A DNA stretch of 64,000 nt from Persicimonas caeni (GTDB lineage Bacteria; Myxococcota_A; Bradymonadia; Bradymonadales; Bradymonadaceae). This document shows, piece by piece, positions 2,259 to 60,400 of this stretch. Location of the stretch: positions 558,001 to 622,000 of the forward strand of contig NZ_CP041186.1 of the NCBI RefSeq assembly GCF_006517175.1. Reading direction: 5' to 3'. The notes beneath the pieces were generated by a model that saw nothing but the letters and a program-made list of their open reading frames with translations, had not been told where the DNA came from and ran no database searches. The translations under genes were made by a program, and so were the position numbers. The first letter of the stretch is position 1. Each line of letters starts with the position of its first letter.

Positions 2259-3161
2259 ATGTATCACGCCGATCCCACATTCAATCGCGTTTTGACGGTG
2301 TTCCTCGAGCAGGACCATGCCAGCCTGACCCCGTCATTCATCGCCTATGAGCTCGATCTGACGTCGCGCGCGGCCGAGCAGTTGCTCGATGAGATGGTCA
2401 AGCGCTCCTTGCTCGATCTCGATTTCGACGACAACGGCCAGCTCTACTACACGGTGAGCGCGGACGCGAAGTTCGAGATCGAGCAACGACGCGAAGAGCA
2501 ACGAAGAGAGGCGGCGAGCGTCTCCCGCGCACCGCAGGTGCAAGCGCACGCTCCCCGAAACGACTGGCGGCAGCCGCACGGTTTTGACGGCGCCGTCGGC
2601 TCGGCCGCCCCGCAGGCACCACCGCGCGTGCAGCAGCCGCCCTACCGGTCCCGCCGCCAACCCGCCCCTGATGCTCAATCGCCCGACGGCTGTGACGGCA
2701 CCGCCGGCTACCCGTCCGACTCATGGGACACCGACGGCGCTGCGATGACATTGGCGGATGGTCCCTGGGAGCCGACGCAGCCCCATCGTCCCCCAGCGCA
2801 CCACGACGGGCGGCGTCGCCGCGAGGGCGAAAGTCATCATCACGGCCAGGACCTCGTGCGCTACCAGCAGCGCGACCTGATGACGCACCGGCAGGCTGAC
2901 CCGATGGTCGCCGCCCTACTGAGCATGCTCTTTGTGGGGACTGGCCAGATCTACAACCGTGAGGTCGGCAAAGGCCTGGCGATGTTCGTAAGCTGCGCGG
3001 TCCTCTGGCTCTTCTCGATGGGCTGGATCGTCAACGTCTGGGCGGTCGTCGACGCCTATGGCGTCGCCGCCCGCAACCGCCTGCGTAACGACCGGATGCG
3101 CAACGACCGGATGCCCAACGACCGGATGCCCAACGACAAGGCGCGCACCGAACTCACCTGA
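2259..3161 (+). CDS. TM2-domain membrane protein with N-terminal winged-helix-like segment
   Basis: About 300 residues. Residues 1-65 ('MYHADPTFNRVLTVFLEQD...') look like a small winged-helix or wHTH unit. A long Pro/Arg/His-rich disordered linker follows. Near residues 215-280 there is a TM2 domain: 'ADPMVAALLSMLFVGTGQIYN' then two hydrophobic spans ending 'WAVVDAYGVAARN'. The C-terminus carries a short repeat (RNDRM/PNDRM about four times). The ATG at 2259 was preferred over an upstream in-frame start at 2148 because the first 37 residues would be low-complexity and unrelated to the domain; no clear ribosome site decides it. The gene converges on and overlaps the next gene by 8 bp. TM2 proteins are poorly understood membrane proteins; no function is assigned. 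Confidence 0.75.
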   Translation: MYHADPTFNRVLTVFLEQDHASLTPSFIAYELDLTSRAAEQLLDEMVKRSLLDLDFDDNGQLYYTVSADAKFEIEQRREEQRREAASVSRAPQVQAHAPRNDWRQPHGFDGAVGSAAPQAPPRVQQPPYRSRRQPAPDAQSPDGCDGTAGYPSDSWDTDGAAMTLADGPWEPTQPHRPPAHHDGRRRREGESHHHGQDLVRYQQRDLMTHRQADPMVAALLSMLFVGTGQIYNREVGKGLAMFVSCAVLWLFSMGWIVNVWAVVDAYGVAARNRLRNDRMRNDRMPNDRMPNDKARTELT

Positions 3162-6100
3162 CTGCGCCTCCCCCTTCGCCTTTCGCCTCGCCCGTGGGGC
3201 GCCGCCGCGACGCCCAAACCCACCCGAACAACGCCAGCAGCGCCAGCGCACCTTCAGCCGGTGCGCCGGTGCTATTACACCCACAGCCGCCGGCTTCGCT
3301 GACGAGTTGCGGACAACCGCTCTCCGTGGTCCCGATTTGACGAGGGCACTCGTCGTCGACGTCGGCAAACTCGTCACCGTCCGTGTCATCATCGCATTCG
3401 TCGCCGAGCCCATCGTTGTCGAGATCGATCTGCTCGGGGTTGCCAATCAACGGGCAGTTGTCGTCGGCGTTGACCAACCCGTCGGCGTCGGCATCGTCGT
3501 CACAGGCGTCGCCCACGCCGTCGCCATCGACGTCGCCCTGCTCTTCGTTGGGCAGGTCGAGGCAATTGTCGGCATCATCGTTGACACCATCGCCGTCGAC
3601 GTCGGCATCACACAGGTCCCCCTGACCGTCACCGTCGAAGTCGGACTGGTCCGGGTTTACCACCAGCGGGCAGTTGTCGAGATCGTTTTGGTGGCCGTCG
3701 CCATCGGTGTCGCCGTCGCAGACATCACCGACGCCGTTGCCGTCCGCGTCGGCCTGGTCTGCGTTCTCCACGATCCGACAGTTATCCTGGTTGTCGCCCA
3801 CACCGTCGCCGTCCGAGTCCTCGTCGCGATAATCGGGCGTGCCGTCGCCGTCGGTGTCGACCGGCGCGGTCTGCAGGTCGTCGTCGCCGGCTTCGTCAGC
3901 GTCGCTCACGCCATCACCGTCCGAGTCGTCGTCGAGCGCGTCGATCGTTCCATCTGCGTCGGTGTCACGAGGCGCTGCGATGTCGCCAACTTCGTCCCAA
4001 TCGCCGATTCCGTCCGAATCGGTGTCGGGGTCCATCGGGTCGAGCCCCACAGGCGTTTCGACAAGGTCGGCGAGTCCGTCATTGTCCGAATCGTCGTCGC
4101 AGGCATCGCCCTGCCCGTCGCCGTCGGCGTCGCTCTGGTCGGGGTTTTCGACCGTGCGGCAGTTGTCCTCGGCATCGGCCACTGTGTCGTCGTCCGAGTC
4201 GTCGTCACGATAGTCAGGCGTGCCGTCGCCGTCGGTGTCGACCGGCGCGGTCTGCAGGTCGTCGTCGCCGGCTTCGTCGGCGTCGCTCACGCCGTCACCG
4301 TCCGAGTCGTCGTCGAGCGCGTCGATGGTCCCATCGGAGTCGGTGTCGACCGGCGCGTGGACCGCGCCGAGCTCCTCGCCGTCGAGGATCCCGTCGCCGT
4401 CGGTGTCCGGGTTCGAGGAATCGAGGCCCAGCGCGCTCTCACCGCCGTCAGGTGCCCCATCGGCGTCCGTATCGTCGACGTTGACGGTGATGTCGACATC
4501 ACGGGTCACCTCGAGGTTGCCATCCGAAGCGACCAGCGTCGCCACCCAGGTGCCGCCGTCGGCGTAGCCCGGTGTCCACGAGAAAGCGCCCGTGGAGGCA
4601 TCGGTGCTCGCCGAAGACGGAAGGCCCCGAACAGCGTAAGTGATCGCGTCACCATCAGCGTCGTTCGCGGCGAGCGCAAACGTCAGCGCCTGGCCCTGCT
4701 GGGCGCTCAGCGGACCACTCGGCGTCGGCGAGACAAACTCGGGCGCGTCGGCCAGCGGGCGCACCGTGATGGTGACCGTGGCGGGGTTCGAATCGGAGGT
4801 GCCGTCGTTAGCCACATAGGCAAAAGAGTCCGAGCCGGCATAGTCGGCATTCGGCACGTACTCGAAAGACCCGTCGGCGTGGAGCGTCAGAGTGCCGTGG
4901 CTAGGCGAGGCATGCGTCGCAGCGGTCAGTGTATCGTTGTCGCCGTCGGTGTCGTCGACCAGCAGGCCCTGGACGGCGCTCACCGTCAGCGTCCCGTCCT
5001 CGTCGACCGAGTAGCTGTCGTCGTTCGCCACCGGCGCGGGATCGCCTGCATCACAGACACCGTCACCATCAGCGTCAGGACCGTCGTTGGCCGGGTCGGC
5101 ATCGCTCGCCGAACCAAACCCATCGACGCCCACCGAGCAGTCGTCGCACGAGTCGAGATCCTCGTCGCCGCATACGTTCGGGTCGAGCGAACTCGGATCC
5201 GTGCCGTCGTTTCGTCCGTCATTATCGTCGTCGGCATCACCGGCGTTGCACTGGCCGTCTCCGTCGGTGTCAGTGCCGTCGTTATTCGGCCGCGAATCGG
5301 CGCTCGAGCCGAAGCCGTCGACGCCCACCGAGCAGTCGTCACACGTATCGGCATCGCTGTCGCCACATACCGTCGGGTCGAGCGGTTGCGGGTCATTCGA
5401 ATCGCTCACACCGTCGTTGTCGTCATCAGCATCGCACGCATCGCCCTGCCCGTCCGAATCGGTGTCGGTCTGCGAGGCATTGCTCACCGATGGGCAGTTG
5501 TCGTTCCCGTCGGTGATTCCGTCTCCGTCGGCGTCCAACGAGAACCGAACCGCCGTGCTCGCTTCGGTCGGCGGCGCGGCCACGCTGTTCAGGTAAGCAG
5601 TCGCCTCGGTGCCGGCGGCGTTCTCAACCCCGACGGTATGGCTCCCGCTGTCAGCCTGGGCGTCCATGAAGTGGATCTCGATGAGGTTGGACGTCTCGTG
5701 CAGGTGCAACTGCAGGCTGACCGTCGCGGTCGTGTTGCTGAAATGCTGGATATCCAGAAATTCGAGCACAAACGTGCGACTGGGGGCGCTGCCAACGGTC
5801 TGGTAGCGAATGCTTCCCCCCTCGGGCGGGTCCAGGTCTTCCCACCAGAGTGCGATGAGATTATTCGGATCGCCCGAGTCGGGCAGGCTGTCGCCCGAGC
5901 AGCAACCGCTGTTGGTCGAACTCCCGTCGAAGGTCACGAAGCCGTTCGAGCCCACCCGAAGACTGGTGTACGTCGTACCGTAAAACTCGAACCCAAACCC
6001 GATGGAGATGCTCGACGAAATGGCATCGTCGCTCAGCGACACACTGGTCGGGGAGCGCAGCAAGATCGGAGAGTAGGTTGGACCTCCCGGATCGGAACTG

Positions 6101-6216
6101 TGGGCAACGGAGTAGGACTGAGCAGAGGCAGCGGTGGCACTGGCAGCGACCGCGAGGAATGCGCCGAGCGCGATGAGCTTCGTAATGTGGCGGTACAACG
6201 TGGAACTCCCGTACAA
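3154..6216 (-). CDS. Secreted multidomain thrombospondin type-3 repeat protein with MYXO-CTERM-like tail
   Basis: 1020 residues. A signal peptide (about residues 1-33, ending 'ATAASAQ') precedes a beta-rich globular region (about 34-230, 'FGFEFYGTTYTSLRVGSNGFVTF'). TSP3-type calcium-binding repeats follow ('[19 protein letters not shown]...'). A cadherin-like/VCBS-type unit comes next ('ANDDSYSVDEDGTLTV' to 'NPATVTITV'), then an Ig-like unit ('LSAQQGQALTFALAANDADGD'). A long second block of D-x-D-x-D-G TSP3 repeats reaches about residue 970. The C-terminus has 'GGCGC', a hydrophobic span and an Arg cluster (WASRRR), the layout of MYXO-CTERM sorting signals. It is probably exported, calcium-stabilised and processed to the surface. 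The start at 6216 gives a complete signal peptide. The 3' end overlaps the TM2 gene. Confidence 0.85.
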   Translation of the reverse strand: MYGSSTLYRHITKLIALGAFLAVAASATAASAQSYSVAHSSDPGGPTYSPILLRSPTSVSLSDDAISSSISIGFGFEFYGTTYTSLRVGSNGFVTFDGSSTNSGCCSGDSLPDSGDPNNLIALWWEDLDPPEGGSIRYQTVGSAPSRTFVLEFLDIQHFSNTTATVSLQLHLHETSNLIEIHFMDAQADSGSHTVGVENAAGTEATAYLNSVAAPPTEASTAVRFSLDADGDGITDGNDNCPSVSNASQTDTDSDGQGDACDADDDNDGVSDSNDPQPLDPTVCGDSDADTCDDCSVGVDGFGSSADSRPNNDGTDTDGDGQCNAGDADDDNDGRNDGTDPSSLDPNVCGDEDLDSCDDCSVGVDGFGSASDADPANDGPDADGDGVCDAGDPAPVANDDSYSVDEDGTLTVSAVQGLLVDDTDGDNDTLTAATHASPSHGTLTLHADGSFEYVPNADYAGSDSFAYVANDGTSDSNPATVTITVRPLADAPEFVSPTPSGPLSAQQGQALTFALAANDADGDAITYAVRGLPSSASTDASTGAFSWTPGYADGGTWVATLVASDGNLEVTRDVDITVNVDDTDADGAPDGGESALGLDSSNPDTDGDGILDGEELGAVHAPVDTDSDGTIDALDDDSDGDGVSDADEAGDDDLQTAPVDTDGDGTPDYRDDDSDDDTVADAEDNCRTVENPDQSDADGDGQGDACDDDSDNDGLADLVETPVGLDPMDPDTDSDGIGDWDEVGDIAAPRDTDADGTIDALDDDSDGDGVSDADEAGDDDLQTAPVDTDGDGTPDYRDEDSDGDGVGDNQDNCRIVENADQADADGNGVGDVCDGDTDGDGHQNDLDNCPLVVNPDQSDFDGDGQGDLCDADVDGDGVNDDADNCLDLPNEEQGDVDGDGVGDACDDDADADGLVNADDNCPLIGNPEQIDLDNDGLGDECDDDTDGDEFADVDDECPRQIGTTESGCPQLVSEAGGCGCNSTGAPAEGALALLALFGWVWASRRRPTGEAKGEGGGAVR
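3822..4326 (-). repeat. Pair of 124-bp direct repeats inside the TSP3 gene
   Basis: The segments 3822-3945 and 4203-4326 are nearly identical, 381 bp apart (127 codons, in frame). They encode the same stretch twice, with the core 'DDDLQTAPVDTDGDGTPDYR'. This is an internal duplication that enlarges the calcium-binding region. Confidence 0.8.
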
Positions 6217-6311
6217 CTACTGCACTGCGATAGGGAAAACAGCGAGATTCAAAGAATTTCTCGCTCCACGTTAGCAGCCCGAGGGGCTTGGCTCAAACTG
6301 GAAGGGTTCCA

Positions 6312-6764
6312 TTATGGGCGACGTCGGCGTTCGGCGAGGTTTTCGCTCGAGACCACCCGAGCCAGGTTGGTCATTTCGCTGGCGAAATACCCCACGATAT
6401 CGTCGAAGGCGATGATGCCGACCAGCGCGTCGTTACGGTCTACGACGGGCACTCGGCGAACTCCGTTGGCGCGCATCGTGCGAAGCACCGTCTCGAGGTC
6501 GTCCTCCTCGCGCACCAAAATGATCACGTCGGTCATGATGTCGCCGACGTTCAGCCGCGAGACGTCGCCTCCCTTGGTGGCCACCCCGGAGATAACGATA
6601 TCGCGATCGGTGAGCATGCCGATGGGAAAGTCGTGGCCGTCTTTCTTCTTGATGACCACGAGATCACCGACGTGCGAATTGCGCATGCGGATGGCGGCGT
6701 CGACGATGCTCAACTCGCGCTGTGCAGTCTTGACTCCTCGCGTACAGAGTTTGCCTGCGTCCAT
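6312..6764 (-). CDS. Tandem CBS-domain protein
   Basis: 150 residues from the ATG at 6764, which has a strong GGAGG five bases upstream; a longer in-frame start at 6800 lacks this. Two CBS units cover nearly the whole chain. The first ends 'PIGMLTDRDIVISGV' with the usual T-D-R-D signature. The second runs from 'VGDIMTDVIILVREEDDLETVLRTMRANGVRRVPVVD' to 'LVGIIAFDDIVGYF'. Stand-alone CBS pairs bind adenine nucleotides and act as sensory modules. No partner domain is fused here. It lies 51 bp downstream of the next minus-strand gene and may be co-transcribed with it. The ligand and partner are unknown. Confidence 0.88.
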   Translation of the reverse strand: MDAGKLCTRGVKTAQRELSIVDAAIRMRNSHVGDLVVIKKKDGHDFPIGMLTDRDIVISGVATKGGDVSRLNVGDIMTDVIILVREEDDLETVLRTMRANGVRRVPVVDRNDALVGIIAFDDIVGYFASEMTNLARVVSSENLAERRRRP

Positions 6765-6815
6765 GGCTCCTCCGGTGGTGGGGTGCTCGAAAGACGTCAC
6801 ACCACGTGAAGATAA

Positions 6816-7766
6816 TCACGCCTGGGGACGCTCCAACGTCGACTGCTCGGGCATGGCGCGTCTGCTGATGAGCCGGCCTGGAAAGCGTGAGTTGCACGAC
6901 ATGACGTGCGTGATGGCGTTGGTGTCGTACTCGTCGCCCGAAGAAAAGTGGTCGAAGTAAGCATTGAGCTTGTGAACCCGGTCGACAGGCGCGTCGACTG
7001 CCTGCAGACCGACCGACACCCCGTAGTTGGTGAACCGAAACTTGGTGTGCGGCATATGCGGGTGGCGCGAAAAATAGCCCGGCGGCTCGATCCACATCGA
7101 GTCGAGCGTCTGCAGCGACCGCTCGCGCTGCACGCGCGCCCACGGCTCGTCGGGGTAGAAGTGACAGATCCAAAGCATCATCCCCAGCGCCAGGTCCTGG
7201 GTGATGTCGAGGTGCGGGTATTGTCGCTCGACGATGGCACGCATGTCGGCGATCTCGGTGTCGAGGCAACCCGCTTTGGCGTCCGATTCTTGGAGCATGC
7301 GGTAGACCACGTAGCCGTGGAAGGCGTCGAGCGCGCCGTAGCCGTAGCCTGGATAGCGCCCCGACAAGTCTTCCTTCATCTTCCAGACGACCCCTCGATC
7401 GGGTCGAACGAAAGCCTCGTGGACCTCGCGGACTAGCGCAATGGCCTGATCTTGGTACTCGGGCTTGTGACGGCCGAGCTCGTGCAGCGCGTACATCCAC
7501 ATCGCCAAGTAGTGATAGTACTGCCCGTCGCGATCGGGCTCCTCACCGATACGCAGCCCACGCGGCCGGCCCAGCACCCGGTCGACCTGAGCGACCACCC
7601 ACTCGGCCTCGTCGAGATAACGCCGCCGCCCCAGCTCTTCGTACAACGACACCAACAAGACCACGCCGAACGCATCGGTCCACAGGTAGCGAAGGCCGTT
7701 GGGCCAAATCTTTTGTTGGCGCATCCAAGCCAACTTGTCGAGAACCCAGTCGATCTCGCGTAGCAT
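6816..7766 (-). CDS. Unknown protein, possibly an alpha/alpha-toroid fold
   Basis: 316 residues, no signal peptide, rich in Trp, Tyr and His. The ATG at 7766 has GAGGA six bases upstream. Repeated helical segments with 'WTDAFGVVLLVSLYEELGRR', 'DGQYYHYLAMWMYALHELGR' and 'GYGYGALDAFHGYVVYRML' are spaced as in (alpha/alpha) barrels of glycoside-hydrolase or epimerase type, and 'DITQDLALGMMLWI' continues this rhythm. I do not recognise a defined family or catalytic motif; the fold suggestion is an inference. It is followed by the CBS gene 51 bp downstream. Confidence 0.7.
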   Translation of the reverse strand: MLREIDWVLDKLAWMRQQKIWPNGLRYLWTDAFGVVLLVSLYEELGRRRYLDEAEWVVAQVDRVLGRPRGLRIGEEPDRDGQYYHYLAMWMYALHELGRHKPEYQDQAIALVREVHEAFVRPDRGVVWKMKEDLSGRYPGYGYGALDAFHGYVVYRMLQESDAKAGCLDTEIADMRAIVERQYPHLDITQDLALGMMLWICHFYPDEPWARVQRERSLQTLDSMWIEPPGYFSRHPHMPHTKFRFTNYGVSVGLQAVDAPVDRVHKLNAYFDHFSSGDEYDTNAITHVMSCNSRFPGRLISRRAMPEQSTLERPQA

Positions 7767-7839
7767 GAGAGTTCCTCGGGCAGCGTTCGATCACAATTTA
7801 CTACCACTTGAATCTCGGCCGCAGCCGTTTTGCGTCAAA

Positions 7840-8484
7840 TCAGAACTCCCTGCGCACGAAAAACTGAGCCTGGCCGGCCACCTCGTACTCCGTCTCAATA
7901 GCGCGGCTGCCGTCGAGCGCGAGGGTGGGCTGGTGGTGATGCCCTCCGGGTCCGGGACCATGGACCGGCTCGCCCATGGTAAACACGCGGATATTGCTGC
8001 CGAGCTTGAGGCCCCACAGGTCGAGTTCACCACCGACGCCGACAAACGCGGCAGCCAACAGCTTGGTCTCGGTGGCCGTCTCCATGGAGATCTTGGTCCA
8101 CTCGGGCCCGACTCCGGCTTGGATGTAGGGAGAGATGATGAAGTCGGGATACAGTCTCAGCCCGGCAGCGCCCAGAACGGTCGCCGACTGGCGGTCCATC
8201 CCCGAAGCAATGACCTCGCCGATGGCGTGATAGTAATCGAGAGACAGCTCGGCGAAGAGATACTTGCCGAAGTCGGCCGTGCCGAATAGCCCCACGCCGT
8301 CCATCCGGCAGTCGTCCCAGGTCAAAGTGCCTTCCTCGGTCACCTCGCGGAACCCGTAACCGCCCACACGTGCTCCCGCGCCCAGTGTGATGGTGTCGTC
8401 GTCTGGTTTCTTCTCGGCGCTCGCAGGTGCTGCGGCAAGAAATGTCAGAGCGGCGAGCATCCCAACAAAAGCGTGCATGCGCAT
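7840..8484 (-). CDS. Small outer-membrane beta-barrel-like protein
   Basis: About 214 residues. A signal peptide ('MHAFVGMLAALTFLAAAPASAEKK') is followed by alternating hydrophobic/polar strands rich in Gly, Tyr and Phe ('GLFGTADFGKYLFAELSLDYYHA', 'SPYIQAGVGPEWTKI', 'GLKLGSNIRVFTM'), ending in a C-terminal Phe ('FFVRREF'), typical of outer-membrane barrels. A His/Gly-rich loop ('GPGPGGHHH') near residue 185 is notable. The ATG at 8484 was chosen because a GGAGG lies five bases upstream; an ATG twelve bases earlier contains that GGAGG. It may be a porin-like or OmpW/OmpA-like barrel; the specific family is not clear. Confidence 0.7.
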   Translation of the reverse strand: MRMHAFVGMLAALTFLAAAPASAEKKPDDDTITLGAGARVGGYGFREVTEEGTLTWDDCRMDGVGLFGTADFGKYLFAELSLDYYHAIGEVIASGMDRQSATVLGAAGLRLYPDFIISPYIQAGVGPEWTKISMETATETKLLAAAFVGVGGELDLWGLKLGSNIRVFTMGEPVHGPGPGGHHHQPTLALDGSRAIETEYEVAGQAQFFVRREF

Positions 8485-21481: not shown

Positions 21482-21755
21482 TGTTCGAGGGTGGGGGCCT
21501 TGCAGGTCAGTCACCTCAACCCCTCCGCCTCGCTGCGCTTCGGCACCTCCCCTTCGGACAAACGACGTCCGTGGGGAGGCAATGGTTGCTTCGGCAGAGG
21601 TGGTCGTTCGTTGGTGCCCCCTCCGACCTCTTGCTCCAACAAACACATGTGGTTGTTGAGGCAACCATTCGCCCCCACGGCCGCAGTACCAGGCCGAAGG
21701 GGGGCAGCCGCCGCAGGCGGCGGGGGGTTGAGGCTGCGAACCGGCAAGGCCTACA
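21482..21755. repeat. Palindromic dispersed element, family 1, copy 1
   Basis: A 274-bp non-coding element differing from copy 2 (23046-23319) at only two positions. It is one long nested palindrome. The outer arms begin CCTTGCAGGT..CACCTCAACCCC and end GGGGTTGAGG...CGGCAAGG. Middle arms are GTGGGGAGGCAATGGTTGC with GCAACCATTCGCCCCCAC. The apex at 21637-21658 is CAACA..CACATGTG..TGTTG. A side stem (GCAGAGGT/ACCTCTTGC) sits in the left half. It lies 5 bp after the receiver-kinase stop. Open frames through it in all directions are by-products of the stop-free palindrome. Confidence 0.85.
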
Positions 21756-22580: not shown

Positions 22581-22789
22581 CGCCGCCCCATGTCCTAAAT
22601 TGGAAGAGATGGTTCGAACGTATCAGGTTGCGGTCAGGTGCGCCAAACCCCTCTGAGTTTCGTTTCAAAGGCGGTTCGCCGGATATGATGCCTCCGGCGA
22701 CGTAGGTCACACTTGCTGGGGCATGCGACGCGCACCGTAACGGCATGGGGTTCCCCGACGAAGCCCAGCCCATGCGGCTTTGCGCTCCC

Positions 22790-23040
22790 AAGGCGACCAT
22801 CGGGAGCCGCGCCGAAGCGTCGTTTGCTGAGGCTTCGGTAGCCCGAGGCGACTCGAGCGTAGCGAGACGAGTCCCGGGTGAGGGTCAACGTGTCCATCAC
22901 ACCCTCTGGGCAACATGCAATGCCACAATTCTCCCGCGACGCACGCCTTGATGATTCGCCACGCCCACCCCTCGGACTCGCTACGCGTCGCCCGGGGCTA
23001 CCGAGGCGCCGCGAACGGCGCGGCGCGCGCTCGCTAGCGC
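22790..23040. repeat. Palindromic dispersed element, family 2, copy A
   Basis: Non-coding segment with two inverted halves. The left half contains GCTTCGGTAGCCCGAGG near 22830; the right half contains CCCGGGGCTACCGAGGCG near 22990-23010. It is shared with 32165-32400 in the opposite orientation, including an exact 25-nt match (22790-22814 with 32232-32256). It ends directly before family 1 copy 2. The preceding 22581-22789 holds no recognisable feature beyond a short hairpin around 22670-22705. Confidence 0.7.
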
Positions 23041-23045
23041 TCGCT

Positions 23046-23319
23046 TGTTCGAGGGGGGTGGCCTTGCAGGTCAGTCACCTCAACCCCTCCGCCTCGCTGC
23101 GCTTCGGCACCTCCCCTTCGGACAAACGACGTCCGTGGGGAGGCAATGGTTGCTTCGGCAGAGGTGGTCGTTCGTTGGTGCCCCCTCCGACCTCTTGCTC
23201 CAACAAACACATGTGGTTGTTGAGGCAACCATTCGCCCCCACGGCCGCAGTACCAGGCCGAAGGGGGGCAGCCGCCGCAGGCGGCGGGGGGTTGAGGCTG
23301 CGAACCGGCAAGGCCTACA
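23046..23319. repeat. Palindromic dispersed element, family 1, copy 2
   Basis: 274 bp, matching copy 1 at 272 positions and in the same orientation. The two mismatches lie within the first 16 bases. It ends 12 bp from the 3' end of the CheY-like gene and directly follows a family 2 element. Confidence 0.88.
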
Positions 23320-23331
23320 GAACCAGAGAAC

Positions 23332-23700
23332 TCACCCCTCCAAAAACTGACCCATCGCCTGCAACAGGCGACCGATATTGACCGGCTTGGTCTCGAAGGC
23401 GTCGCAGCCCGTCTCGAGCGCCTTGGTGCGGTCGCTCTCGAGGGCGTGGGCGGTCAGCGCGATGATCGGGATGTGGGCCGTCGCCTCGTCGCCCTTGAGC
23501 GTGCGCGTGGCTTCCCAGCCGTCCATGACCGGCAGGCTCAGGTCCATCAGGACCAGGTCGGGTTGCTCGGCGTGGCATTTCTCGACGCCTTGCTTGCCGT
23601 CGGGGGCGATGATGACCTCGAAGCCGCGGCGCTGCAGGCGGCGGGCGAGCATGTCGCGGTTCATTTCGTTGTCTTCAACCAACAAGATCTTGGCAGTCAT
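23332..23700 (-). CDS. Single-domain response regulator (CheY-like)
   Basis: 122 residues consisting of one receiver domain: 'ILLVEDNEMNRDML' (acidic pocket), phospho-acceptor Asp near 53 in 'DLVLMDLSLPVMDG', Thr in 'IIALTAHA' and Lys in 'FETKPVNI'. All conserved positions are present, so it should be phosphorylatable. The sequence is closest in style to stand-alone receivers that serve hybrid histidine kinases (M-D-L-S-L-P-V-M-D-G-W-E-A). It lies 76 bp downstream of the methyl-accepting signalling gene on the same strand and probably works with it or with the hybrid kinase further upstream. Confidence 0.93.
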   Translation of the reverse strand: MTAKILLVEDNEMNRDMLARRLQRRGFEVIIAPDGKQGVEKCHAEQPDLVLMDLSLPVMDGWEATRTLKGDEATAHIPIIALTAHALESDRTKALETGCDAFETKPVNIGRLLQAMGQFLEG

Positions 23701-32164: not shown

Positions 32165-32400
32165 CTTCCCCCGGACTCCCTCCGCTAGCGCTACGGTCGC
32201 CCGGGGCTACCGAGGCCTCGCGGACGGCGCTCGGCGCGGCTCCCGATGGTCGCCTTGGTGGGCATCCGCGGGTGCCGCCCTAATCGGAGCGAGGGCATCT
32301 TGCCGTCGTGCTAAGCGAGCTTAGCGAGCGCGCGCCGCGCCGTTTGCGGCGCCTCGGTAGCCCGGGGCGACCGAAGGGAGTCCCGGGAGCCTCAACAACC
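32165..32400. repeat. Palindromic dispersed element, family 2, copy B
   Basis: The left half contains CCCGGGGCTACCGAGGC (near 32198-32215). The right half contains the inverse, GCCTCGGTAGCCCGGGG (near 32353-32370), followed by GAGTCCCGGGAGCCTCAAC. The centre (32232-32256) matches family 2 copy A exactly over 25 nt in opposite orientation. It fills most of the 433-bp gap before the acidic-protein gene. Confidence 0.7.
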
Positions 32401-32580: not shown

Positions 32581-33345
32581 ATGTCTATGTCTACTCGCCA
32601 GTCTGACCGTGATCTGATCAACGCCGCCCAAGAAGCCCAGCAGAACCTCGAGCGCGTCCCCCTCGACGGCCACGCCCAGGACCTGATGGTCATCGCCCTC
32701 GCCCTGTTCGCTCAGGTCGAGGCCGACATGACCGAGGTCGTCGAGAAGGTCGACGCCGAGTCGGTCGAGGCCTCCGAGAGCCACGTGGCGCTCACCGAGG
32801 CCGAAAGCGCCGCCGACGCCGGCTACGGCGACGTCTACGACACCCTCGTGCTCACCCACCGCCACCGCCGCCTGGGCCGCCGCGACCGCAGCGCCACCCA
32901 CATGCAGGCCCTCGAGCGCTACCTCGACGGCAACAGCGCCTCCGACTTCAAGGGGCGCGCCCGCGCCGACAAGGTCACGATCATGAAGAAGGCGCTCGAC
33001 TACGTCGACGAGTACACCAACGACGGGCTGGTGCCCGCCGAGGTCATCGACGACGCCGTCCAGGCCCACCAGGCCTTCCGCGACGCCTACGACACCTGGC
33101 GCGCCGAGGGCGCCGACGTCACCGACGCGCGCAATATCGCCGACACCGTGCGCCCCGCGGCGCGCGCCAAGTACACCTCGGCCCGCGAGGTCGCTCAGGC
33201 GGCGTTGCGGTTGAGTGGGACCGAGCGGCCGATTTCGGACTATTGCCCGTCGTTGAGTGAGATCAAAGGAGGCAGTCCTGCGCCCACGGATACCGACGCG
33301 GACCCGGCTCCCGCCGACGACGTCGACGAGCCCGTCGAAGCTTGA
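32581..33345 (+). CDS. Acidic helical protein of unknown function
   Basis: 254 residues, mostly helical, rich in Asp, Glu, Ala and Arg. No signal peptide or membrane span. Motif-like stretches include 'RQSDRDLINAAQEAQQNLERVPL', 'DTLVLTHRHRRLGRRDRSATHMQALERYL' and a Pro/Asp-rich disordered C-terminus ('PAPTDTDADPAPADDVDEP'). An AGGAG lies two bases before the ATG at 32581 and eight before an in-frame ATG at 32587, which is the better-spaced start; both give the same protein apart from two residues. I do not recognise the family. It is followed directly by a 43-bp tandem repeat array and a terminator. Confidence 0.6.
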   Translation: MSMSTRQSDRDLINAAQEAQQNLERVPLDGHAQDLMVIALALFAQVEADMTEVVEKVDAESVEASESHVALTEAESAADAGYGDVYDTLVLTHRHRRLGRRDRSATHMQALERYLDGNSASDFKGRARADKVTIMKKALDYVDEYTNDGLVPAEVIDDAVQAHQAFRDAYDTWRAEGADVTDARNIADTVRPAARAKYTSAREVAQAALRLSGTERPISDYCPSLSEIKGGSPAPTDTDADPAPADDVDEPVEA

Positions 33346-33351
33346 GCGACC

Positions 33352-33640
33352 GACCTCGTCTTCTCGGCTGCGGAGAAGCGCTGGTCAGACCGTCTACTTC
33401 GTCTTCTCTGCTGCGGAGAAGCGCTGGTCAGACCGCCTACTTCGTCTTCTCCGCTGCCGAGAAGTGCTCCCAGGACCGCCTACTTCGTCTTCTCTGCTGC
33501 GGAGAAGTGCTTCTAGGACCGCCTACTTCGTCTTCTCCGCTGCCGAGAAGTGCTTCTAGGACCGCCTACTTCGTCTTCTCCGCTGCCGAGAAGTGCTCCC
33601 AGGCCTGCCAACTTCGTCTTCTCCGCTGCGGAGTGAACGA
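33352..33640. repeat. 43-bp tandem repeat array, seven units
   Basis: The phrase CGTCTTCTC recurs at 33357, 33400, 33443, 33486, 33529, 33572 and 33615, an exact 43-bp period. Each unit holds a short inverted repeat (CTTCTC..GCTGC..GAGAAG) and a variable trailing part (for example GCTGGTCAGACCG or GCTTCTAGGACCG). 43 is not a multiple of three, and the array starts just after the stop of the acidic-protein gene, so it is not coding. It has no spacers of CRISPR type. It sits between convergent genes and ends before a terminator hairpin. Confidence 0.9.
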
Positions 33641-33676
33641 AGTAGGCCATCCGTCGAGCACCACTCTTCTACACCA

Positions 33677-34335: not shown

Positions 34336-34538
34336 GGCCTTGCAGGTTCGTCACCTCAACCCCTCCCCCCTTCGGGGACCTCCCCTAAACGGCAAACAGC
34401 GCCGTTTGGGGAGGAAATGGCTGCTCCAATAACCACATGTGGCTATTCGGCCGACCATTCGCCCCCCAAAGCCGCAGGCGTGGGGGGCAGGCGCGCCGTC
34501 CAGCGCCGGGGGGTTGAGGTCGCGGTTCGGCAAGGCCT
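34336..34538. repeat. Palindromic dispersed element, family 1, copy 3 (diverged, shorter)
   Basis: About 203 bp with the same outer ends as copies 1 and 2 (GGCCTTGCAGGTTCGTCACC at the start, GGTTGAGG..CGG..CGGCAAGGCCT at the end) and the same apex core CACATGTG. Middle-arm and apex stem bases differ from copies 1 and 2, but pairing is kept: GTGGGG/CCCCAC became TTTGGGG/CCCCAAA, and CAACA/TGTTG became AATA/TATT. The side stem in the left half is absent. It lies between the divergent tpx and multicopper oxidase genes. Confidence 0.8.
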
Positions 34539-59330: not shown

Positions 59331-60293
59331 TCAATTGAGCGACGGTGGCAGCTCGCGGCGGATATCGCAGCTGCCGCCCACGCAGAATTGGCGGCCCGGC
59401 GGAATGGTGCCGTCGGGAAATTCGACCTCCGACTTGCCCTCGCGCCACCTGCCGACCGCGGTTCGGTACCGGTCGACGAGAAGGCGTCGGTCTTCGCGGT
59501 ACTCCTGGCGCTGCTTGAAGTCGCCGCCGTGGCACAGGGGCCGAGGCGCCTTTTTCGGCTTCCTCGGAGAATCGCTCCATTTCACGCTGAGCGCCTTCTT
59601 TGGCCCCGGGCACGGCACGGTGCGCAGTTTGGCTAGTTCCCCAGCGTGTGTGTGACACTCGTCGACGATCTTTTGGTGGTAAGCCTCGTCGTCGAGCTCC
59701 TGCCACTGCGGAAGCTTGGCCATCTCGAGGGCGTACCGCTCGGTGGCCATCTCGATGAGCTCGGCTTCGGTCTTGTCCTTGTTCTTCCGTTTGCGCTTCT
59801 CCGCCCAGTACGTCTTGCGGTTGACCACCTCGCCCACCATCGGCTTTCCGCTCTTGTGGATGTCCCAAGAGCAAAGCCCCGGCCACTGCTTCGGGTGGTG
59901 CACGAGGTTCGATTCAGACGGGTTGCACACGATGTAGCGTAGACGCTGGAGCATCGCCTCGTCGGTCAGGACCTTGGTCGCGGAGTAGCGGCGCTCCCAG
60001 AAGGTGCCGGTGCGGTTGCGTAACTTGTTGATCTTTTTGGCCAGCTGGCTCTGGAAGTCGCGCATGAACAGATGCATCTGCAGCGAGCGGCAGCGCGCCA
60101 GGATGTGGAAGTGATTGGACATGAAGCAAAACGCGAAGATTTCGACCCCGTACATCCAGGCGTATTTGGACAGCAGCCCCAGGATGATGGCGTTGACCTG
60201 CTCTTCGGGCAAAAGCGCATAGATCTGGTGCAGCGTGCGGTTGCCCAGCTCGTAAATGGCGTCCTTTTCCTGATTTCGCAGTGGGTGTCCCAT
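59331..60293 (-). CDS. REP-associated tyrosine transposase (RAYT, Y1 HUH family)
   Basis: 320 residues. The HUH motif is 'FCFMSNHFHILARC' (H-F-H). The candidate catalytic Tyr is in 'QRLRYIVCNPSESNLV', matching the Y-I-x-x-N-P position of RAYT/IS200-like transposases. 'FWERRYSATKVL' is a further family segment. The N-terminal 180 residues form the transposase domain; the rest is a charged extension with 'AEKRKRKNKDKTEAELIEMATERYALEMAKLPQWQELDDE' and a Pro/Arg-rich end. It is flanked by inverted REP-like copies, the hallmark of RAYT/REPIN systems. The start ATG 60293 has only a distant ribosome site. It may be domesticated. Confidence 0.85.
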   Translation of the reverse strand: MGHPLRNQEKDAIYELGNRTLHQIYALLPEEQVNAIILGLLSKYAWMYGVEIFAFCFMSNHFHILARCRSLQMHLFMRDFQSQLAKKINKLRNRTGTFWERRYSATKVLTDEAMLQRLRYIVCNPSESNLVHHPKQWPGLCSWDIHKSGKPMVGEVVNRKTYWAEKRKRKNKDKTEAELIEMATERYALEMAKLPQWQELDDEAYHQKIVDECHTHAGELAKLRTVPCPGPKKALSVKWSDSPRKPKKAPRPLCHGGDFKQRQEYREDRRLLVDRYRTAVGRWREGKSEVEFPDGTIPPGRQFCVGGSCDIRRELPPSLN

Positions 60294-60400
60294 GGGTGCC
60301 GTGCTCCGTGAATAGATGAAGGTTCATCAACAGCCCTCATTACGGTTTTCGGCAAAAGGGGGCGATTCGTTGCGTGATTGGGCCAAATTTCTTGGAGCAA

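Follow-up and report, generated by a model that had tools for sequence, protein, structure and literature searches.

Six-armed DNA palindromes and their association with DUF559 nuclease genes in Persicimonas caeni and other bacteria

Palindromic repeats in the window and their fold

The 64-kb stretch of the Persicimonas caeni genome analysed here (hereafter the window) contains three copies of a large palindromic repeat, all confirmed at the positions given for them in the initial annotation of this DNA or no more than a few bases away. Copy 1 is a block (TGTTCGAGG...CCTACA) at 21482-21755, within which the palindrome proper spans 21496-21751; copy 2 is the corresponding full duplicated block at 23046-23319 (palindrome proper 23060-23315), and copy 3, a complete six-arm element, extends from 34336 to 34537. 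The sequence CACATGTG occurs three times in the window, every time at the apex of a copy. Between copies 1 and 2 there are 2 differences in 274 positions, exactly as had been annotated, and their 60-base outer flanks are unrelated (identity 16/60 and 17/60); this near-identity in unrelated surroundings shows that the block was recently duplicated to a second site. As judged from the ORFs, copy 1 lies in a convergent and copy 3 in a divergent gap, in agreement with the earlier description of the gaps as convergent or divergent, but copy 2 departs from it, having a minus-strand gene on either side and lying 16 bp beyond the stop of 23332-23700.

Further repeats are found in the same window. A 50-nt inverted pair at 22987-23036 and 32322-32371 represents another palindromic repeat (GTCGCCCGGGGCTACCGAGG...), which is found beside a RAYT gene as well (genome position 6464265; L070), a perfectly complementary 28-nt pair at 22788-22815 and 32231-32258 represents yet another intergenic repeat (CCAAGGCGACCATCGGGAGCCGCGCCGA), and six overlapping copies of 129 nt, arrayed in tandem with a period of 43 nt, occupy 33307-33650.

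Copy 3 and five further copies from the genome (L029, L030, L032, L036 and L039) fold, as RNA or as DNA, according to one six-arm plan, in which a stem P1 (GGCCTTGCAGG..CCTCAACCCC / GGGGTTGAGG..GCAAGGCC) closes five hairpins, P2 to P6, among them P3 (CCTCCCC..GGGGAGG), P4 (AATGGTTG..CGACCATT, apex CACATGTG) and P5 (GCCCCCC..GGGGGGC). In copy 3 the 5' strand of P1 (34336-34365) pairs with its 3' strand (34508-34537), and these enclose P2 (34366-34377), P3 (34379-34414), P4 (34416-34459, with CACATGTG at 34434), P5 (34461-34488) and P6 (34490-34507); DNA folding parameters give nearly the same fold for this copy as RNA parameters. The arms of copy 1 are the hairpin P2 (21526-21544), P3 (21546-21579; CCTCCCC...GGGGAGG), P4 (21581-21669; AATGGTTGC...GCAACCATT), which is enlarged in this copy and has CACATGTG at its apex, P5 (21670-21705; CGCCCCC...GGGGGGC) and P6 (21706-21721). 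Single-strand folding of copies 1 and 3 gives z = -7.7, with 0/200 dinucleotide shuffles as stable. The 3' half of the element is roughly an inverted 5' half, and therefore both strands fold. A single long hairpin is preferred by copies 1 and 2 only, whereas copy 3 and most others prefer the six-arm junction.

Families and covariation in the genome

A covariance model, R1, was built from the six copies and searched against the genome, a single contig of 8.05 Mb. It returned 89 matches at E<=1, of which many are both strands of one place and for which the E-values are rough; the repeat is thus palindromic, intergenic and present in many copies, as REPINs and the repeats of REPtrons are. We group the copies into three sequence families: family I, the type found in the window, family II (ATCCCTTGCTT..GGGGCCCCTCC..GGGGATTGCA..) and family III (GGCATTGC..GATGCCCCC..ATGGTCG..). 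Families II and III follow the six-arm plan of family I and have little sequence in common with it.

The initial annotation had predicted many further copies with significant covariation, and both the R1 matches and family II bear this out. Aligned by MAFFT alone, with no structure input, family II independently yields a six-helix consensus. On the six-arm plan 96.2% of its cells are paired, and 13 pairs (55 cells) have changed on both sides, against a shuffled mean of 21.2 (0/500); covariation is 0.183 in register and at most 0.061 when the structure is slid. The single long hairpin, proposed at first as the selected structure, did worse than this plan when the two were compared, with zero two-sided compensatory changes in the same family, and is not supported as the selected structure. 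Covariation in family I is modest (9 pairs versus 5.2 shuffled, 16/500) because only six of its copies align well without long insertions.

An insertion sequence (IS) with ends CACTCGATTCGGATC has inserted into arm P5, at its GCTTCGC loop, in copies of families I and III (L033, about 5588-7913; L038, about 3147-5472; L149, about 2181). The palindromes are therefore IS targets.

DUF559 genes beside the palindromes

Genes lying between neighbouring copies were considered as shared cargo and belong to no common family, but a DUF559 gene emerged from them as a lead: the gap between two family I copies of the same orientation (genome positions 5931602-5932624) contains one at 5931863. The genome has five DUF559 matches, and flanks were inspected for four of them, the fifth being a short fragment at 2464335. 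Besides the gene between the family I copies, that at 6939658 has family III on both sides. Family II lies about 50 bp from the gene at 788036, to one side of it, and the gene at 3112591 stands between other repeats and an IS. Association of a DUF559 gene with the repeat, a feature of homing-type elements, is accordingly found here. RAYT and DUF559 genes are preceded by a conserved leader, which was considered as a part of a cassette and rejected. Its motif, CGCAAC-N14/15-GCCGAAAAC, often followed by CGTAATGAGG (for example at 60345-60374 of the window; L154-L183), has 87 genome sites versus 1-2 for the reversed pattern and lies upstream of Y1, DUF559 and also unrelated genes; it is therefore probably a promoter.

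The model of the DUF559 protein (pLDDT 86) matches NGO0050 (3hrl) and the homing endonuclease I-Bth0305I (3r3p), its nearest solved mobile relative, and more weakly Vsr. Acidic and histidine residues are conserved (E26, D55, E66, D68 and H72), so that both the fold and the residues of the EDxHD/Vsr family are present, and the gene is predicted to encode a Vsr-fold PD-(D/E)XK nuclease of the EDxHD type. Among DUF559 proteins, VsrA of Caulobacter has been described as a Vsr-like nuclease with a link to cytosine methylation (PMC12907096), and E. coli YcjD has been assigned to the PD-(D/E)XK nucleases (PMC1189080).

The association recurs among 21 genomes of the same family. R1 matches are found in 6/6 genomes with a stand-alone DUF559 gene versus 3/15 without (p=0.0015), and of the three genomes with matches and no detected stand-alone gene two (G019 and G014) are incomplete. 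Loci were opened in G020, G011, G017 and G008, leaving aside that of G009. In G020 the sole R1 match lies 26 bp beyond the DUF559 match, and in G011, G017 (two genes) and G008 (a truncated gene) DUF559 adjoins palindromes or flanking repeats; the repeats of G008 had come to light through their similarity to copy 3 when DUF559 had not yet been recognised.

For a wider sample we took 80 DUF559 loci from named genomes, picked because their proteins resemble those encoded by the DUF559 genes of this genome, and the following rates refer to such loci and not to all DUF559 proteins; flanks were long enough in 62. A repeat of at least 40 bits is common to the two flanks in 19/62 loci versus 2/237 shifted control positions in the same loci (p=1e-12), a strong two-sided repeat being absent in 43/62. 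A GC-rich stem of at least 10 bp occurs in 31/86 gaps adjacent to DUF559 versus 1/85 other intergenic gaps of the same loci (p=7e-10). Many of the shared flank repeats are C-rich multi-hairpin palindromes. An alphaproteobacterial repeat (L201) has much of the six-arm plan, and its genome contains 22 matches to the element, most of them away from the DUF559 gene. Palindromes also adjoin DUF559 in E. coli (ycjD), gonococcus (Neisseria), Sinorhizobium, Sphingomonas and Azospirillum. DUF559 genes are thus associated with palindromes in this genome, in related genera and in many phyla. In one Sphingomonas record (L288, 1965-2375) a DUF559 gene with short palindromes lies inside the suf operon, between sufB and sufC.

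In E. coli the sapF-fabI gap is polymorphic: 3333 of 5426 genomes contain a site that covers 80% or more of the query taken from the ycjD locus. The locus was considered as a precise empty site and rejected, because in the two ycjD-lacking strains inspected an efflux operon stands at the start of the gap, in place of a scar-free junction; this operon of the other allele has been described (PMC12817139). Most of the loci inspected in Acinetobacter are syntenic, with DUF559 inherited in place, and no clean empty site was reached among them; in one relocated case (L245) gene and palindrome lie in a different neighbourhood. Inspection of flanks revealed no clear target-site duplication.

Origin of the palindromes and comparison with known systems

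Two of the readings first suggested for these elements have lost most of their appeal. A structured RNA, riboswitch-like or a terminator and conserved as RNA, would agree with the strong RNA folding and the covariation, but is very improbable: R1 scores both strands, both of which fold; copies occur in convergent, divergent and tandem gaps alike; and Rfam gave zero matches at gathering score. Moreover, wobble cells are nearly balanced between G-T (19) and A-C (12), with 11 each when one column pair is left out, a lack of clear strand bias that suggests a DNA structure and not a single RNA strand. The alternative of a REPIN-like element or cruciform, named at the same time, comes close to what the evidence says. 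That the repeat is a MITE of a DDE transposon, as its terminal inverted repeats (GGCCTTGC/GCAAGGCC) might suggest, we hold to be just as remote, since flanks show no target-site duplication on inspection and offer no empty site for comparison, no DDE element with matching ends was found, and the sole IS at the copies has ends of its own and is inserted within the P5 loop.

Two further explanations differ in the role they give to DUF559, which may be no more than a passenger or may exploit the palindromes just as targets. On the one hand, the palindromes may be REPINs moved in trans by a RAYT (Y1, HUH) transposase of the genome, with DUF559 as passenger. The genome has six RAYT-size Y1 genes, several clearly flanked by large palindromic repeats of their own, and about half of the family I copies, but not the others, have CTAC at the 3' end, which is GTAG on the other strand, like classical REPs (PMC3733652). 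This explanation is nevertheless unlikely: RAYT was dropped as a direct partner because none of the roughly 20 RAYT or other Y1 regions examined is flanked by families I-III, the RAYTs carrying their own repeats, whereas DUF559 genes are so flanked, and the DUF559 link recurs in many phyla. On the other hand, DUF559 may be a homing-type parasite, or a cruciform-processing repair enzyme, which settles in or acts on pre-existing palindromes without spreading them, while these multiply by replication slippage or other means. EDxHD homing endonucleases have the same fold (PMC3943268), palindromes exist with no DUF559 gene nearby, and the insertion of an unrelated IS into the P5 loop shows that palindromes do serve as insertion targets. 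We consider this unlikely as well, because DUF559 genes are flanked on both sides by one palindrome family and, in one genome, three families go with three different DUF559 genes.

The Y1 genes form a subject of their own. The RAYT-size genes at L038, L070, L071, L072 and L073 (L074 is less clear) mostly have their own large palindrome on both sides, so that this one genome contains several REPtron-like units. A dispersed family of Y1_Tnp proteins of about 330 aa is represented in the window at 59331-60293 and at about 20 other genome sites.

The explanation that we prefer, and judge to be probable, is that the elements are non-autonomous dispersed DNA palindromes, of which the autonomous form has the same palindrome on both sides of a small DUF559 gene, in a REPtron-like arrangement with a Vsr-fold nuclease in place of RAYT. 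Each palindrome could extrude as a six-armed cruciform; the DUF559 nuclease would recognise the palindrome, either as such or as a hairpin (extruded or single-stranded), and nick or cut it; break repair or template switching would then copy the palindrome into new intergenic sites, and sometimes the gene between two palindromes would be copied along. This would be the logic of REPtrons and REPINs with a homing-type nuclease substituted for the HUH tyrosine transposase (RAYT). That DUF559 binds, cuts and mobilises the palindrome we infer from the parallel with REPtrons (PMC3733652, PMC3116915) and with homing endonucleases (PMC3943268). Against this explanation we count that no precise empty site and no clear target-site duplication were found and that inheritance in Acinetobacter is mostly in place. 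We also count against it the 43 of 62 loci that lack a strong two-sided repeat, the R1 matches in three genomes with no detected stand-alone DUF559 gene, and the description of Caulobacter VsrA as a Vsr-like nuclease linked to cytosine methylation (PMC12907096). More tentatively, DUF559 (YcjD/VsrA-type) might constitute a new class of repeat-mobilising enzyme, a Vsr-fold nuclease which reads cruciform or hairpin DNA and spreads the abundant C-rich palindromes of many phyla; this would add a third mode of moving small repeats to those of the HUH and DDE enzymes.

For decades intergenic palindromes have been recognised as abundant, and certain classes reportedly have no transposase dedicated to them (PMC3733652). 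DUF559 genes are likewise widespread (E. coli ycjD, gonococcal NGO0050, Caulobacter vsrA) and little characterised. Because palindromes adjoin DUF559 genes in this genome and across many phyla, our data suggest that a common class of bacterial repeats is spread by DUF559, which would be the partner so far missing. Should palindromes and DUF559 belong together, each would account for what is puzzling about the other, and E. coli K-12 would allow an immediate test; a nuclease able to read DNA junctions with several arms would, if true, be of interest to biochemists too.

The Sinorhizobium DUF559 gene adjoins CCCCCTCTGCCCTGCCGGGCATCTCCCCC... palindromes, which presumably resemble RIME; RIME and similar rhizobial mosaic repeats have fewer arms than the elements described here. 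Vsr, Caulobacter VsrA (a DUF559 protein) and E. coli YcjD belong to the same nuclease family as the DUF559 partner (PMC12907096, PMC1189080), but in those parts of the DUF559 literature that were accessible we found no paper linking them, or DUF559 in general, to palindromic repeats. The EDxHD homing endonuclease I-Bth0305I (PDB 3r3p) shares the fold of the partner; it has extra DNA-binding parts and a target of nearly 60 bp (PMC3943268), in contrast to DUF559, which here is a single domain between palindromes. CGTC-tagged REPs may be comparable in that they are said to be without a dedicated transposase (PMC3733652). In TIRtrons large repeats flank an enzyme gene (PMC3733652), but these enzymes are still tyrosine transposases. 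The closest parallel is the REPIN/REPtron system of GTAG REPs with RAYT (TnpA-REP), which likewise comprises intergenic palindromes in many copies per genome, repeats that flank the enzyme gene, and non-autonomous copies (PMC3116915, PMC3733652, PMC8266576); our elements differ from it in that they measure about 200 nt and have six arms, compared to a REP of 20-40 nt or its doublet, and in that the flanked gene encodes a predicted Vsr-fold nuclease instead of an HUH transposase.
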